From assembly GCA_902776645.1 (NCBI GenBank), contig CACYQT010000002.1, positions 1 to 64,000 on the forward strand: DNA of 64,000 nucleotides, in the 5' to 3' direction. Position 1 is the first letter of the stretch. Each line of letters begins with the position of its first letter. Source of the DNA: an uncultured bacterium (lineage in GTDB: Bacteria; Verrucomicrobiota; Lentisphaeria; Oligosphaerales; Oligosphaeraceae). The notes beneath the pieces are model-generated. The model made no database searches. It worked only from the letters and a program-made list of their open reading frames with translations, and was not told where the DNA came from. Positions 47,198-52,592 of the stretch are shown in pieces. The position numbers and the translations under genes were made by a program.

Positions 47198-49051
47198 TTA
47201 TTCCAGCGGGATAATCATGCTTAGTCTTGCTTTTTTCCAATTTGGTTTAGCAGCATGCTCTTCGTCTGGAATGAAAAGCCGGAAGCCGCGGATGGTGATC
47301 ATACCGTCGCCACCGTCTGAAAGGATTTCGATGTCGCCGTGCTCATAGACAAACGGCAGGTTGTTCAGAGTCGAGACAGGCGATTCGCCAATCTGCGCAA
47401 GGCTTTCCGGCAGAGCGCCTTGGTGTTCATGGCTGTATTCCATGATCTTCCATGAGAGCATCGCCATTTGCCGTGCGTCTGTCATATTGTTTTGCATGGC
47501 ATAGAATGACAGGGGAGGTTCAAAAAACATAAGAGTCTTTTTTGTCTTCAGTTCATTTTGTAGCATTCTAGCTTCTTCCATGGTGGAGGATTCATCCAGT
47601 GACAGTCTGACGAATTCTGCATGATATTTTTGGTTGATGCATGCAGGATCCATGAACAATCGCTTCAGGAAAGAAGCAGGACCGTTCATCCAGAGACTTA
47701 CACCGCAGTATAAACTGTTCACAAGCCATTGAATATAAAAGCGATTGTACAGATTTATGTCAGCATCTAGTTTGAGTGTGTTTGCAAAGTCATAAAGAGA
47801 TCGTGTGCTGTCGGCATTCGTCTTATAGGCGCAGGCGGCGATGTATCGCCAATCCGGTTCGTTTCCAAGCAATTCCAGCCATTCCTTTTCCGTATAGCGG
47901 TTTTGCGGTAGTGTGCGAGCCAATGCATCGAGTCGTCTGCCTTCTACACTACGTCCATAGGATTTATCGTATGGACTGGATTCCTGTTGCAGACACCAGT
48001 CACGCAGGCTGATCATGGCAGCGTTATCTTGCTTGACGAGATCGCGTTGTTGGGCGTTGGCCATCATTTCAATGGCCAGAAAACGGGCGGCTTCGGGAAG
48101 AGATTTTGAGAAAGGATGGGACGATTCATCAGTGATTGGCTGGGTATGAGTGACAGGACGTGGCGGCATGGCGGCCAAGGCGATGATGGCATCTCGCACG
48201 CCGTTGGATTTCTTTGATATGTCGGCAAATTGCTTTTGGATGCCGGCTTGTGTATTGGAGATCGATTGCTCCCAAACAAATTGCTTTTCAAGAGCCTGCA
48301 TAAGCGAGACGACGTTTTTCAGAGGTTCTTTTTCCAAGAGGGATTCGTCGCATGGCTGAACATTGATGCCGTGTTTTTGGCGATAGTCCGCAAGCATGGT
48401 TTCCATTTGTGCGGGTGCGTCTATAAATTGTTGTACAAGGGGATATTCGGTTGCGATACGGATGATACCAGTGACAGCGGCGATGGCGAAGGAGATTTTT
48501 ACGATATTCTGGCGGAATTTCAGATCGCCGACGAAAACGACACCGAGCATGGCGAAGAGAGGGTTGATAAAAATGGCCAGAAACAGCGCAAGTGGTTGGA
48601 GTGGAAGATATCCCATGCAGATGGATTGGGCATACAAAAACAGGATCAAACTTGCCAAGGACATTAAAACAGCGTAAGGACGGCTTTTTTTCACACCCAA
48701 CCAGACGATTGTAACGATGCCGAGTGGTGAAAACAGGAGAAATACAAGAGCTCCGAAAATGCGACATGGCCATTTCCAAGGCGATGACGGTGTTTCGAAC
48801 ACATCCAAGACAGTACTGACTAGTTGTTGGGTTTCATAGAGCAACAGTCCCCAGACGATGATTAGGATCATGCAAAACGGCCATTTCCCCTGGACGCCTG
48901 CTGTGAATGCCCATGGGATGATAATGTTACAAGGTAATGACAAGGCGATTGCCAGCAGTAAAGCTTCGTATGGGGCGCCTTTCAATGAAATGATATTGTT
49001 GAAATGCTGTAGTTTGGTTACTTGCTTGGGGGTGTCTTCATTCTTTTCCAT
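47198..49051 (-). CDS. Unknown polytopic membrane protein
   Basis: I do not recognise this 617-residue protein. The first 25 residues are polar. Five to six membrane segments lie within about 27-200: LLLAIALSLPCNIIIPWAF, MILIIVWGLLLYE, GALVFLLFSPLGIVTIVWLG, a long hydrophobic stretch 130-175 and ISFAIAAVTGIIRIA. The remaining 400 residues form a soluble helical domain, with a C-terminal part (KIMEYSHEHQGALPESLAQI) that resembles the globular domain of pseudopilin-like proteins. The region is more AT-rich than its neighbours. It is 300 bases downstream of the radical SAM gene on the same strand, but an AT-rich gap makes cotranscription uncertain. Confidence 0.6.
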   Translation of the reverse strand: MEKNEDTPKQVTKLQHFNNIISLKGAPYEALLLAIALSLPCNIIIPWAFTAGVQGKWPFCMILIIVWGLLLYETQQLVSTVLDVFETPSSPWKWPCRIFGALVFLLFSPLGIVTIVWLGVKKSRPYAVLMSLASLILFLYAQSICMGYLPLQPLALFLAIFINPLFAMLGVVFVGDLKFRQNIVKISFAIAAVTGIIRIATEYPLVQQFIDAPAQMETMLADYRQKHGINVQPCDESLLEKEPLKNVVSLMQALEKQFVWEQSISNTQAGIQKQFADISKKSNGVRDAIIALAAMPPRPVTHTQPITDESSHPFSKSLPEAARFLAIEMMANAQQRDLVKQDNAAMISLRDWCLQQESSPYDKSYGRSVEGRRLDALARTLPQNRYTEKEWLELLGNEPDWRYIAACAYKTNADSTRSLYDFANTLKLDADINLYNRFYIQWLVNSLYCGVSLWMNGPASFLKRLFMDPACINQKYHAEFVRLSLDESSTMEEARMLQNELKTKKTLMFFEPPLSFYAMQNNMTDARQMAMLSWKIMEYSHEHQGALPESLAQIGESPVSTLNNLPFVYEHGDIEILSDGGDGMITIRGFRLFIPDEEHAAKPNWKKARLSMIIPLE

Positions 49052-49352: not shown

Positions 49353-50180
49353 CTATCTCCATTCAATATTTTCAATCGTATGAAGGCATTTGCGGAAATA
49401 GCCTGACGGGCCGATGACACCGAAGGTCTTTCCCGCCGTGCATGGACGCGATTCATTGTTGCCGAATGCCTTGACCAATTCCTTCGGCTGCAGGCGACAT
49501 TCGCAGAGCATTTCATTGACGAACCAACGGGAAACGCCGCCTTGCGGCAACGCGTAGATTTCCGCCTTGACCGCCTCCCATTCGTCATGGGAGAACGCCA
49601 GTTCGGGATGGCTGCGCGCCTTGCCTTCAAGCATGACGGCGCCGATCTGGATGCTTTTCGCATGGGAGAGGACGGCGGCGGCCACCATGTCGGCGATTTC
49701 ATGACGATTGACTTTGTTGACCGTTATGCTGACATTGGTCGGCCATTCCAGTTCGGCGGCTCTGGCGATGAAGGAGAGGGTTTTCGCAAACATCCGCCGG
49801 GTGCCGGTCTGCATACCGTAAGTCTTTAATCCTTGAAGACTTGTTGAAAGTTCAATTTTCTTTTCCTTGCACCAGAGCAGTTTCTCTTCCGTCATGCGGC
49901 TGCCGTTGGTGAAAAGGGCGAGACGGCTGGACGGCATCAGGCCTCGCGCGAAATCCAACAGATGCCAGATGTCCTGCCGCAACGTCGCTTCGCCGCCTGT
50001 TAACAGGATGTCGTTGACGCCACGGGCGGCGCAATCCCGCAGAATATCCTCCCATGCCGCCGTATCCAGTTCAGGCTTCGCCAGTTCCGGAAATTCGTGC
50101 CACACGCAATAGCAGAATGGGCAGTGAAAATTGCAGCGTGTGGTGACTTCAAGAATGAGATGGGGAGGCAATTGAAGCAT
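49353..50180 (-). CDS. Radical SAM enzyme with SPASM/twitch-like C-terminus, linked to two small secreted proteins
   Basis: The 275-residue protein has the SAM-cleaving [4Fe-4S] motif as C16-x3-C20-x2-C23 (TRCNFHCPFCYC), a GGEATLRQD loop and the barrel. The end carries more Cys: C226-x-C228, C247 and C265 in PCTAGKTFGVIGPSGYFRKC, which matches the C-x-x-G-x-n-G-x-n-C layout of SPASM/twitch domains in peptide-modifying enzymes such as anSMEs and RiPP maturases. It starts 26 bases after the stop of the small protein gene at 50207, with no ribosome site of its own, so translation is probably coupled. I infer that it modifies one or both small proteins. Confidence 0.88.
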   Translation of the reverse strand: MLQLPPHLILEVTTRCNFHCPFCYCVWHEFPELAKPELDTAAWEDILRDCAARGVNDILLTGGEATLRQDIWHLLDFARGLMPSSRLALFTNGSRMTEEKLLWCKEKKIELSTSLQGLKTYGMQTGTRRMFAKTLSFIARAAELEWPTNVSITVNKVNRHEIADMVAAAVLSHAKSIQIGAVMLEGKARSHPELAFSHDEWEAVKAEIYALPQGGVSRWFVNEMLCECRLQPKELVKAFGNNESRPCTAGKTFGVIGPSGYFRKCLHTIENIEWR

Positions 50181-50206
50181 GGCATAAAATGGAAACGGCG
50201 CAACGG

Positions 50207-50593
50207 TTATTGATTCGCCTTGTCAGCGGGCGGTGGCAGGGGTGCTCCCATGAGCGGTCGCGGCTGCTGCTTTTCGTTCTCTTCGTTCTTTTCTTCGCAT
50301 GGCGGCGCGGGTTTTCCCATGAGCGGACGCGGCTCGGGAGCCTGCTTGTCGTTTACCTGTTCTGCCGAATTGTTTTCAACATGATTCTGACTGGGAGTGG
50401 AAGCTTTTTCATCTGAATAACTTATGTCGGAAACAGCGTCAGGGTTTGGAACGTCGCCGGCCGTTCTTCTGAAAAACACGTCGCAACCGGTGGTCGCCAC
50501 CAACGACGACAACAATCCCACCAGCGGCAGTCCTTTCTGCAAGGCGTTTGCGATGGCGGCCTGTCTCTTTTTTCCTTTTGGCGTGAGTTTCAT
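50207..50593 (-). CDS. Small secreted or lipoprotein-like protein A, likely radical SAM substrate
   Basis: The 128-residue product starts MKLTPKGKKRQAAIANALQK, then a short hydrophobic run (GLPLVGLLSSLVATTG) and Cys37-Asp. It is nearly identical to the start of the protein at 50613-51257, also at DNA level. The lipobox is not canonical, as Thr is at -3. The rest is low-complexity, Pro/Glu/Asn-rich, and repeats R-P-L-M-G: RPLMGKPAPP at 89-98 and RPLMGAPLPP at 112-121. Cys99 is the only other Cys. AGGAACGT precedes the ATG. It lies 19 bases after protein B and 26 before the radical SAM gene. Confidence 0.8.
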   Translation of the reverse strand: MKLTPKGKKRQAAIANALQKGLPLVGLLSSLVATTGCDVFFRRTAGDVPNPDAVSDISYSDEKASTPSQNHVENNSAEQVNDKQAPEPRPLMGKPAPPCEEKNEENEKQQPRPLMGAPLPPPADKANQ

Positions 50594-50612
50594 ACGTTCC
50601 TACTGTTTGTAT

Positions 50613-51257
50613 TTATTTGTTGTCAATTAAAATACCCGGCACGTCACGGGGCTTTGTTTGCTCAATAATATCATAGATTTGCTTAATAAAATCATCGTTA
50701 TCGATTGGATCCGGTTGATCAACTTGAATTATTGGGAAGGGAGCAATAAAATCGCCCGGCACGTCACGGGGCATACTTAGCTCATTAATAATCGGATCCG
50801 TTTGATCAAGTCTGAATTCAATTGGATTGGCTTGTATGATATCAATCAGATCCTTTTGATCAATTTTGGACTCGATAAGTGAATTAGGGGCAAGTTTTTC
50901 AAGCATTTTCGCCCTTAGTTCAACGCTGACATCCGTCATGACAGGAAGGTTGGGAGTCCCCGTGGTGAGCTGTTGTGAACCAAGCGGATGCTCCGATGCG
51001 TTGCATTTTTGTCCTGTGGGCGAGTCTGATGGTTGATCATCTGATGGTTTTTCCGTTGATTCTTCAGCCTCCTCCGGGGTGATTGTCGTTGGCTTCGGTG
51101 CCATTCTTCCCATTGTATGGCGATTCATGATTCCTTTGATCAAATCGCAGCCTGGAGTCACCAGCAGCGACGACAGCAATCCTGCCAGCGGCAGTCCTTT
51201 CTTCAGGGCTTTGGCGATGGCGGCCTGTCTCTTTTTTCCTTTTGGCGTGAGTTTCAT
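50613..51257 (-). CDS. Small secreted or lipoprotein-like protein B, likely radical SAM substrate
   Basis: The 214-residue protein shares the first 38 residues with protein A (32 identical), including KGLPLAGLLSSL and GCD at 36-38. Its tail has R-x-x-M/P-G segments: RHTMGRMAP (46-54), PRDVPGDFIAP (163-173) and PRDVPGILI (203-211). A second repeat, DQxDPI, occurs at 151-156 and 180-185 (DQTDPI, DQPDPI). The PRDVPG copies are also near-identical in DNA (ACGTCACGGGG). There is a second Cys at 85. AAGGACATCTCC precedes the ATG. First gene of the trio; a 227-base spacer separates it from the C45-type gene. Confidence 0.8.
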   Translation of the reverse strand: MKLTPKGKKRQAAIAKALKKGLPLAGLLSSLLVTPGCDLIKGIMNRHTMGRMAPKPTTITPEEAEESTEKPSDDQPSDSPTGQKCNASEHPLGSQQLTTGTPNLPVMTDVSVELRAKMLEKLAPNSLIESKIDQKDLIDIIQANPIEFRLDQTDPIINELSMPRDVPGDFIAPFPIIQVDQPDPIDNDDFIKQIYDIIEQTKPRDVPGILIDNK

Positions 51258-51484: not shown

Positions 51485-52543
51485 TCATAGCACGGCTTTG
51501 CGGGCGATTTCACAGCATTTTTCAAAAGCGTCGTTAAGGATGGCCTGCGCATCTTTGCGACGGCGATTTTGCATGGCTTCCTTCGCTTTTGCGAGGGCGG
51601 GGCGGTAGATGGCCATGACCGCTTTTTCGTGGGGGAGCCACACGTCGCTGTCGAACGACAGTCCATTCGCGTCGCGTCTTGCGAAGGCGGCTTTGGACCA
51701 TGACCGGTCGGCGATGTCCTGCGGGATTTCCTTCAGGCAGATCGGCGCGGGAATGTACATCGTGTGGCCGACGGGACCGATGGCTACATACATCGTGCTG
51801 AGCATGTTAGGATAATCTTTGTCGATGGCGATCGTGGCGGCGGAATTGGTCGTCTTGTTGCAAAGGCCGTGCTCCGTCATGACGGATTCCATGGTTCCGC
51901 GCATGCGGGATGTCCGCCAGATATCCTCCAATTCGATGACGCCTTTTTTCTCCAATGCTTCATTCAGGCCTTTGGCGGCCTGGAATTCACGGGACTGGCT
52001 GTTCATGGTTGATTTGATGCCGCTTCTGGAGAATTGGGCCATGCCCGGATTGTGCCAGATGTTGGCGCGGATGGTCATGTTGCCGGTGACGACGACAGGC
52101 ATGACGCGCTTCGCGGTCAATTCGGCGATGTAACCGCCCTTCGTGTCCATGATGAAGAAAATGGAGCCTCTTTCCTTGTGCGTGTATTGGCCGTTTTCGA
52201 TGAAGCCCGTGAGCATTTTCAAGGCTTCTTTCGCGTTTTTCGTGTTTCCAAGTATCTGCACGAGAATCTCCGGCGTCGTCAGGCGGCCTTCGGTGGCCGG
52301 GGCGAATTCAGGCGTCGTTTCGCCGCTGTTCATGACGCAGGCGACGCCTTTTTCGTTGAAGCCCATGCATGGATTTTCGTCGCCGAGGCCGAGCCATTTG
52401 ATTTTGGCGTCGCGGTCGCTTTTGATGAGGCGGATGTCTTTTTTGCCGGAATCACGGTTCTTGTGGAGGATCATGGGGCCGCCCGTCAGTTCGGGGAAGA
52501 GCATCCAGCTGGTGCATTCGTGGTCTAAAGAATCGTTTTTCAT
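51485..52543 (-). CDS. C45-type Ntn hydrolase (acyl-CoA:6-APA acyltransferase-like)
   Basis: The 352-residue protein has a Cys at residue 10 (MKNDSLDHEC-TSWML), followed by HKNRDSGKK, GLGDENPCMGFNEKG and the Asn-containing VMNSGETTP. This is the layout of the choloylglycine/C45 N-terminal nucleophile group, which exposes the Cys by self-cleavage and then hydrolyses or transfers acyl-amide bonds. A nine-residue propeptide fits. C45 enzymes act on beta-lactam precursors, dipeptides or acyl amides; the substrate here is unknown. The start at 52543 has only weak ribosome pairing. It lies upstream of the lipoprotein-like genes on the same strand, so it might process them, but that is inference. 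Confidence 0.75.
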   Translation of the reverse strand: MKNDSLDHECTSWMLFPELTGGPMILHKNRDSGKKDIRLIKSDRDAKIKWLGLGDENPCMGFNEKGVACVMNSGETTPEFAPATEGRLTTPEILVQILGNTKNAKEALKMLTGFIENGQYTHKERGSIFFIMDTKGGYIAELTAKRVMPVVVTGNMTIRANIWHNPGMAQFSRSGIKSTMNSQSREFQAAKGLNEALEKKGVIELEDIWRTSRMRGTMESVMTEHGLCNKTTNSAATIAIDKDYPNMLSTMYVAIGPVGHTMYIPAPICLKEIPQDIADRSWSKAAFARRDANGLSFDSDVWLPHEKAVMAIYRPALAKAKEAMQNRRRKDAQAILNDAFEKCCEIARKAVL

Positions 52544-52552
52544 AGTAGTATT

Positions 52553-52583
52553 AGGGATAAGAAGGGATAGAAGGGATAAAAGC
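52553..52583. repeat. AGGGATAAGAAGGGATAGA word repeat
   Basis: Three purine-rich units in the leader of the C45-type gene, just before its start, like 41163-41201. Confidence 0.55.
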
Positions 52584-52592
52584 AAGATGGTT

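Follow-up and report, generated by a model that had tools for sequence, protein, structure and literature searches.

A radical SAM enzyme and its tag-sharing partner proteins suggest a leader-addressed protein-modification system in Verrucomicrobiota

What might a radical SAM enzyme be doing beside two small proteins that begin almost identically and then part ways? This question is raised by a three-gene cassette within a 64,000-nucleotide stretch of DNA, which was analysed as a whole and is referred to here as the window. Radical SAM maturases are known mainly for the production of released peptides or for the activation of single enzymes. A preliminary interpretation of this DNA, the sequence-only reading, had proposed that the common leader of the two small, secreted proteins guides the enzyme to R-x-x-[M/P]-G sites in their tails.

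Results

The window cassette

The cassette consists of three tandem genes on the minus strand, which encode a radical SAM enzyme and two small lipoprotein-like proteins. The enzyme, of 275 amino acids (49353..50180), is assigned to the radical SAM/twitch type from its ORF, Pfam PF04055, an AlphaFold model and a fold match to SkfB (6efn). The smaller precursor-like lipoprotein, of 128 amino acids (50207..50593), is an ORF whose leader and motif are kept in relatives, and the longer one, of 214 amino acids (50613..51257), is likewise defined by its ORF. Gaps of 26 bases (between the enzyme gene and that of the 128-residue protein) and 19 bases (between the two small genes) separate them, and the ORF coordinates agree to the base with the three tight genes on one strand that had been described earlier.

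The flanks of the window cassette are common only to a syntenic copy in another genome, G004. The upstream neighbour (51485-52585, minus strand) has weak similarity to AAT/Ntn-hydrolases, below cut-off, and its TTG start is probably placed too far upstream, since the G004 orthologue starts at an internal MKN. On the other side lies the gene of a 617-residue membrane protein without a Pfam match (47198-49051, minus strand), which is kept downstream of the cassette only in G004 contig C177. G004 itself contains two separate cassette copies (contigs C172 and C177; loci L024 and L023), whose enzymes are 61% and 89% identical to the window enzyme and are accompanied by one and two partners.

The enzyme resembles SkfB

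The enzyme belongs to the radical SAM superfamily, given that PF04055 is exceeded clearly (64.5 bits against a gathering cut-off of 29.5, the sole Pfam family above cut-off) and that a CX3CX2C motif is present. This cluster motif, C16-x3-C20-x2-C23, is followed by Y24-C25 (50106..50135, minus strand); all of these residues are invariant in 24 orthologues, as are C226, C228, C247, C265 and G260 of the auxiliary-cluster region (C226-x-C228 ... C247-x12-G260-x4-C265; 49386..49505, minus strand). The C-x3-C-x2-C motif and four C-terminal cysteines reported previously for the window enzyme are thus all present and shared by these orthologues, which form one clade with support of 95/93. The C247-x12-G260-x4-C265 segment fits the CX9-15GX4C signature, by which the enzyme would fall into the twitch subclass; the other two candidate ligands, C226 and C228 (CxC), sit upstream rather than downstream, an unusual twitch order. 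Together the four C-terminal cysteines probably bind one auxiliary cluster.

No NCBIfam model reaches its cut-off with the enzyme, the best being that of SkfB (TIGR04403, 76.9 of 300 bits), and generic radical SAM profiles such as PqqE and MoaA match all 24 orthologues alike; neither kind of profile assigned the enzyme to a family with an unrelated known substrate. The fold leads to the same relative. The AlphaFold model (pLDDT 93.4, pTM 0.90) has as its top Foldseek match the RiPP maturase SkfB (6efn; E 2.8e-15, TM 0.76 on the query), and SkfB likewise headed the results when the PDB was searched with a profile (E 5.3e-29). Because this alignment begins only at SkfB residue 107, the match does not include the SkfB RRE; indeed, in both alignment and model few residues precede the radical SAM core, and the enzyme has no N-terminal RRE.

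Two further profile identities were tried and rejected: TIGR04133 for the enzyme (38.2 bits against a cut-off of 425) and TIGR04134 for the partners, which it did not match, its only sub-threshold matches being to long, unrelated ORFs.

The cassette could in principle be a divergent branch of the Bacteroidetes radical SAM/lipoprotein pair that these two profiles describe, as it has the same broad arrangement of a radical SAM gene and a small lipoprotein, and TIGR04133 is among the weak matches of the enzyme. Its truncated, twitch-like tail argues against such a branch, which we regard as very improbable; TIGR04134 was above cut-off in 0 of 31 genomes.

A common leader with unrelated tails

Residues 1-38 of the two small proteins are identical at 32 of 38 positions (84%; 99 of 114 nucleotides) and comprise a leader and signal-peptide region, located at 50480..50593 in the 128-residue protein and at 51144..51257 in the 214-residue protein (both minus strand; leader profile match to each, with E 1.6e-17 for the latter). 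A repeat search recovers the same paralogous pair over 113 nt at 88%. The comparison bears out what had been claimed of these proteins, namely a common leader that precedes unrelated tails. In the window the leader reads MKLTPKGKKRQAAIAxALxKGLPL, and the form common to partners across genomes is MxL[ST]xxx[KR]xQxxIxxAxxxGxPLxxL. The two cassette partners are the only leader profile matches in the window genome, and neither belongs to a Pfam or NCBIfam family. Both are predicted to be secreted: they have a good h-region and a weak lipobox (TPGC, TTGC), and the lipoprotein features, judged by eye, are KKGLPLAGLLSSLLVTPGC, with Thr rather than the usual Leu at position -3. The gene of the 214-residue partner also contains short direct repeats (50624-50876) made up of DQ-DPI and PRDVPG units, which suggests that the tail has grown by duplication.

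Enzyme and leader co-occur

The enzyme and the leader are closely associated across genomes. Within a sample of 198 genomes of the class, 24 had an enzyme match with E no higher than 1e-30 (a close orthologue in 20), and the leader profile gave 18 matches at E < 1e-10. These fell in 15 genomes, every one of which was among the 20 with a close enzyme (hypergeometric 1e-18, uncorrected for relatedness). In the phylum sample of 388 genomes, the enzyme was found in 19 at E 1e-45, including five outside the class in a second Verrucomicrobiota family with enzyme orthologues (f45), and the leader was found in 16. The sequence-only reading would have been refuted had most leader homologues occurred with no radical SAM gene close by; the opposite is seen, as the enzyme accompanies the leader in 15/15 class and 15/16 phylum genomes.

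G128, a genome 85% complete, encodes a leader-bearing LysM-like protein (L111:1828-2310, minus strand) beside a Sel1-repeat-like gene and a kinase-like gene; no enzyme orthologue was found there, the only match being a generic radical SAM one.

Nearly all orthologues adjoin, or lie one gene from, leader-sharing proteins, those of G065 and G187 having no recognisable partner nearby. For example, a single gene, which we take to resemble glycerol-3-phosphate dehydrogenase, separates partner and enzyme in all of G124-G126 (L049, L048, L051). A chance operon without any functional link, for which we can cite only the general point that closely spaced genes need not be related, would hardly keep this adjacency over many genera, and in two classes of the phylum sample, when the genes on either side differ, and we consider it scarcely credible. 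Inspection of the ORFs in 12 neighbourhoods revealed no third shared gene and no consistent transporter, peptidase or immunity gene.

A scan of GTDB contigs yielded ten loci, all from Victivallales or Lentisphaerae save one partial Opitutales locus, a narrow range that is not proven thereby, since the scan used two short peptide patterns and missed known members. In the Opitutales locus L041, a partner with KRFVMGKP lies upstream of a contig-cut enzyme. Where cassette loci have named records, these are MAGs of Victivallales or Lentisphaerae, and several come from ruminants. Neither a scan of viral contigs nor a plasmid search found a relative, and thus these collections give no sign of a mobile carrier.

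A different set of related radical SAM enzymes was encountered at L060, L061, L108 and L062 (G141, G101, G319 and G062). Ahead of each lies a different partner gene, whose product has paired CxxC motifs resembling those of zinc ribbons. The enzymes at L060, L061 and L108 have a fuller SPASM-like set of cysteines, and these four loci are possibly a second enzyme/partner system.

One leader on lipoproteins, LysM proteins and signal-less proteins

Inspection of loci across genomes revealed three builds of partner, the leaders of which align with one another. Putative lipoproteins (type A) are found in the window, in G004 (three copies) and in G002, G019, G051, G083, G146, G365 and G384. Sec-exported proteins with a LysM domain confirmed by Pfam (type B) occur in G168, G167 and G194, and G319 and G329 have a LysM-like partner that also bears a lipobox-like GC. 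Finally, proteins without a signal peptide that end in a K/RKLFGK helix (type C) occur in G124, G125, G126 and G135; the partner in G136 is similar without that ending. Partners of a further kind, found in G169, G176 and G193, have no leader but retain motif-like sites. Secretion, which had been claimed for the two small proteins, is therefore predicted for the exported types and not for some orthologous cassettes, whose partners are signal-less. Partner architecture also switches within an enzyme clade, for example in G194 (LysM) beside G051 and G083 (lipoproteins). Look-ups in Pfam and NCBIfam returned nothing for the partners but LysM and, in one, a LysW-like zinc ribbon below cut-off.

Some genomes contain leader-bearing partners that are not linked to the enzyme. 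In G124 and G125, other contigs encode a leader-bearing lipoprotein and a leader-bearing LysM-like protein, with the motifs HPVAGARP and RLIGEPPERP in the G124 lipoprotein and MIGEPVRP in the LysM-like protein, and G365 has a second leader-bearing lipoprotein with the motif elsewhere in its genome. These unlinked partners make it probable that the enzyme serves more than one or two substrates, some of them in trans.

The diversity of partners bears on whether this is a classical RiPP pathway, in which the modified tail would be released as a small peptide (a bacteriocin or signal) and the resemblance to lipoproteins would be incidental. Such a pathway would fit the short precursors, their leader/core division, the fast-changing tails behind a conserved leader, and a twitch enzyme related to SkfB. 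It fits poorly with partners that include LysM proteins and that reach 269 amino acids with several motif copies, with lipoboxes that would anchor their bearers, and with the want of a conserved transporter, peptidase or immunity gene; we judge it unlikely.

A repeated glycine motif in the tails

Partner tails are rich in Pro and contain a repeated motif of approximately [T/V/M/L][M/V/A]G[D/K/S/R/E]x(1-3)P. In the 128-residue protein it appears as RRTAGDVPNP (50441..50470), recovered by an unsupervised motif search, and as PRPLMGKPAPP (50300..50332) and PRPLMGAPLPP (50231..50263), which are repeated in relatives. In the 214-residue protein the same unsupervised search recovered RHTMGRMAP (51096..51122), and two degenerate copies, MPRDVPGDFIAP (50739..50774) and KPRDVPGILID (50622..50654), are read from the sequence and overlap a 47-nt direct repeat; all six sites are on the minus strand. 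The R-x-x-[M/P]-G tails of the sequence-only reading are indeed present in the window (RHTMG, RRTAG, two PRPLMG and two PRDVPG) but are only a local form of the general motif xxG[DKSRE]x(1-3)P, in which Arg is not general.

An unsupervised Gibbs search of 24 post-leader tails returned [T/V/M/L][M/V/A]G[D/K/S/R/L].. at 14.85 bits, against 10.7-11.3 in eight shuffled sets, with Gly present in 22 of the 24 sites. Leaving out one architecture at a time gave moderate results for LysM proteins (Fisher p 1.4e-4) and signal-less proteins (1.8e-3); holding out the lipoproteins was uninformative, as training then settled on the LysM domain and the C-terminal helix, and a PWM from nine lipoproteins alone was over-specific. 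A pattern written after the sequences had been seen gave 38 occurrences, where 2000 shuffles averaged 10.7 and never exceeded 26, and the same post hoc pattern reached 15.5 per 1000 amino acids in partners against 1.7 in other window ORFs. No side chain but Gly and Pro is near-constant in the motif, and most tails are without the Cys near it that a sactipeptide would require for its thioether.

The motif helps to separate substrates from scaffolds. If the enzyme acted on some other substrate (a small molecule, a glycan or another protein), the leader proteins would be scaffolds or accessory subunits that bind it. In favour of this, the leader by itself might serve as a docking helix, and the enzyme comes from a broad superfamily, with generic profiles matching all members here. 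A scaffold role would account less well for the several unlinked partners per genome and a repeated, position-flexible tail motif that is kept across architectures. The motif is kept even in G059, where a distant enzyme (32% identity) adjoins an 81-residue lipoprotein with a different leader that nevertheless contains LAGDIAP and LGKPAP. Because the motif persists in this way, substrates fit better than scaffolds, and we hold the scaffold role to be quite unlikely.

Discussion

Co-occurrence and adjacency, a leader carried by different partners, a common motif and an SkfB-like predicted fold are direct observations, and the first four give strong comparative support to leader-guided modification as originally proposed, with its target motif corrected. 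We think it likely that this is a minimal leader-addressed protein-modification cassette, the products of which would be modified envelope proteins and not a released peptide. Under this reading, the radical SAM enzyme would bind the N-terminal leader of its partners in the cytoplasm, generate a 5'-deoxyadenosyl radical and modify one or more motif copies in the flexible tail, with the single auxiliary Fe-S cluster probably taking up an electron. Modification would precede export. For exported partners, Sec export and signal peptidase would then remove the leader with no need for a dedicated transporter or protease. Indeed, the signal peptide of types A and B follows directly on the leader, and signal peptidase might thus serve as the leader peptidase, which would explain the missing export and protease genes.

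As to the chemistry, a sactipeptide-type thioether is unlikely because Cys is not conserved in partner tails. With Gly and Pro the only near-constant residues and Cys mostly absent, our guess, which is a doubtful one, leans instead to a reaction of the backbone at Gly or at an adjoining residue, such as Calpha epimerisation or oxidation. A broader proposal, for which we see a little less than an even chance, is that Verrucomicrobiota use a general leader-addressed radical system to modify the backbone, possibly in a new way, at repeated xxG[DKSRE]xxP sites in several unrelated proteins (lipoproteins, LysM wall-binding proteins and cytosolic proteins), by means of a removable N-terminal tag and with signal peptidase doubling as the leader peptidase.

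Taken together, the enzyme family and its tag- and motif-sharing partners suggest a system, as yet undescribed, for the chemical modification of proteins on their way to the cell envelope. The pairing was not described in NCBIfam, Pfam or the open-access literature searched. That wall-binding, lipid-anchored and cytosolic proteins all bear this tag and motif suggests chemical marking of whole proteins, in a phylum of the gut and rumen that is poorly studied. With one enzyme and substrates of about 100-200 amino acids, the chemistry is directly testable in E. coli.

Comparison with known systems

The sporulation killing factor maturase SkfB (TIGR04403, PDB 6efn) is the nearest solved relative by sequence and fold. 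Both enzymes combine a radical SAM core with a twitch-type single-cluster domain containing CxC, and SkfB modifies a peptide that bears a leader, as is proposed here for the window enzyme and its partners. The auxiliary cluster of SkfB involves Cys351 and a CxC further downstream, and Cys333 precedes the hairpin (PMC6231123). The 18-residue spacing of C247 and C265 in the window enzyme equals that of SkfB 333-351, whereas its CxC (226, 228) precedes the beta-hairpin; it also differs from SkfB in scoring well below the profile cut-off (76.9 against 300 bits), in having no RRE and in partners that mostly have no Cys for a sactionine. The SPASM peptide enzymes PqqE, SuiB and CteB share the related radical SAM fold but have a full SPASM domain with two auxiliary clusters, compared to four C-terminal cysteines, enough for one, in the window enzyme. 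The Bacteroidetes TIGR04133/TIGR04134 system is alike in pairing a radical SAM enzyme with a small lipoprotein, and both of its profiles are far below cut-off here.

Dedicated export and protease genes are usual, though not universal, in RiPP systems. On comparative evidence the present cassette appears to resemble these systems in its dedicated enzyme, conserved leader and variable tail with a core motif. It differs from the usual ones in having no conserved export, protease or immunity genes, in serving several partners in trans, and in having as partners entire proteins of the envelope or cytosol, of which some contain a LysM domain.
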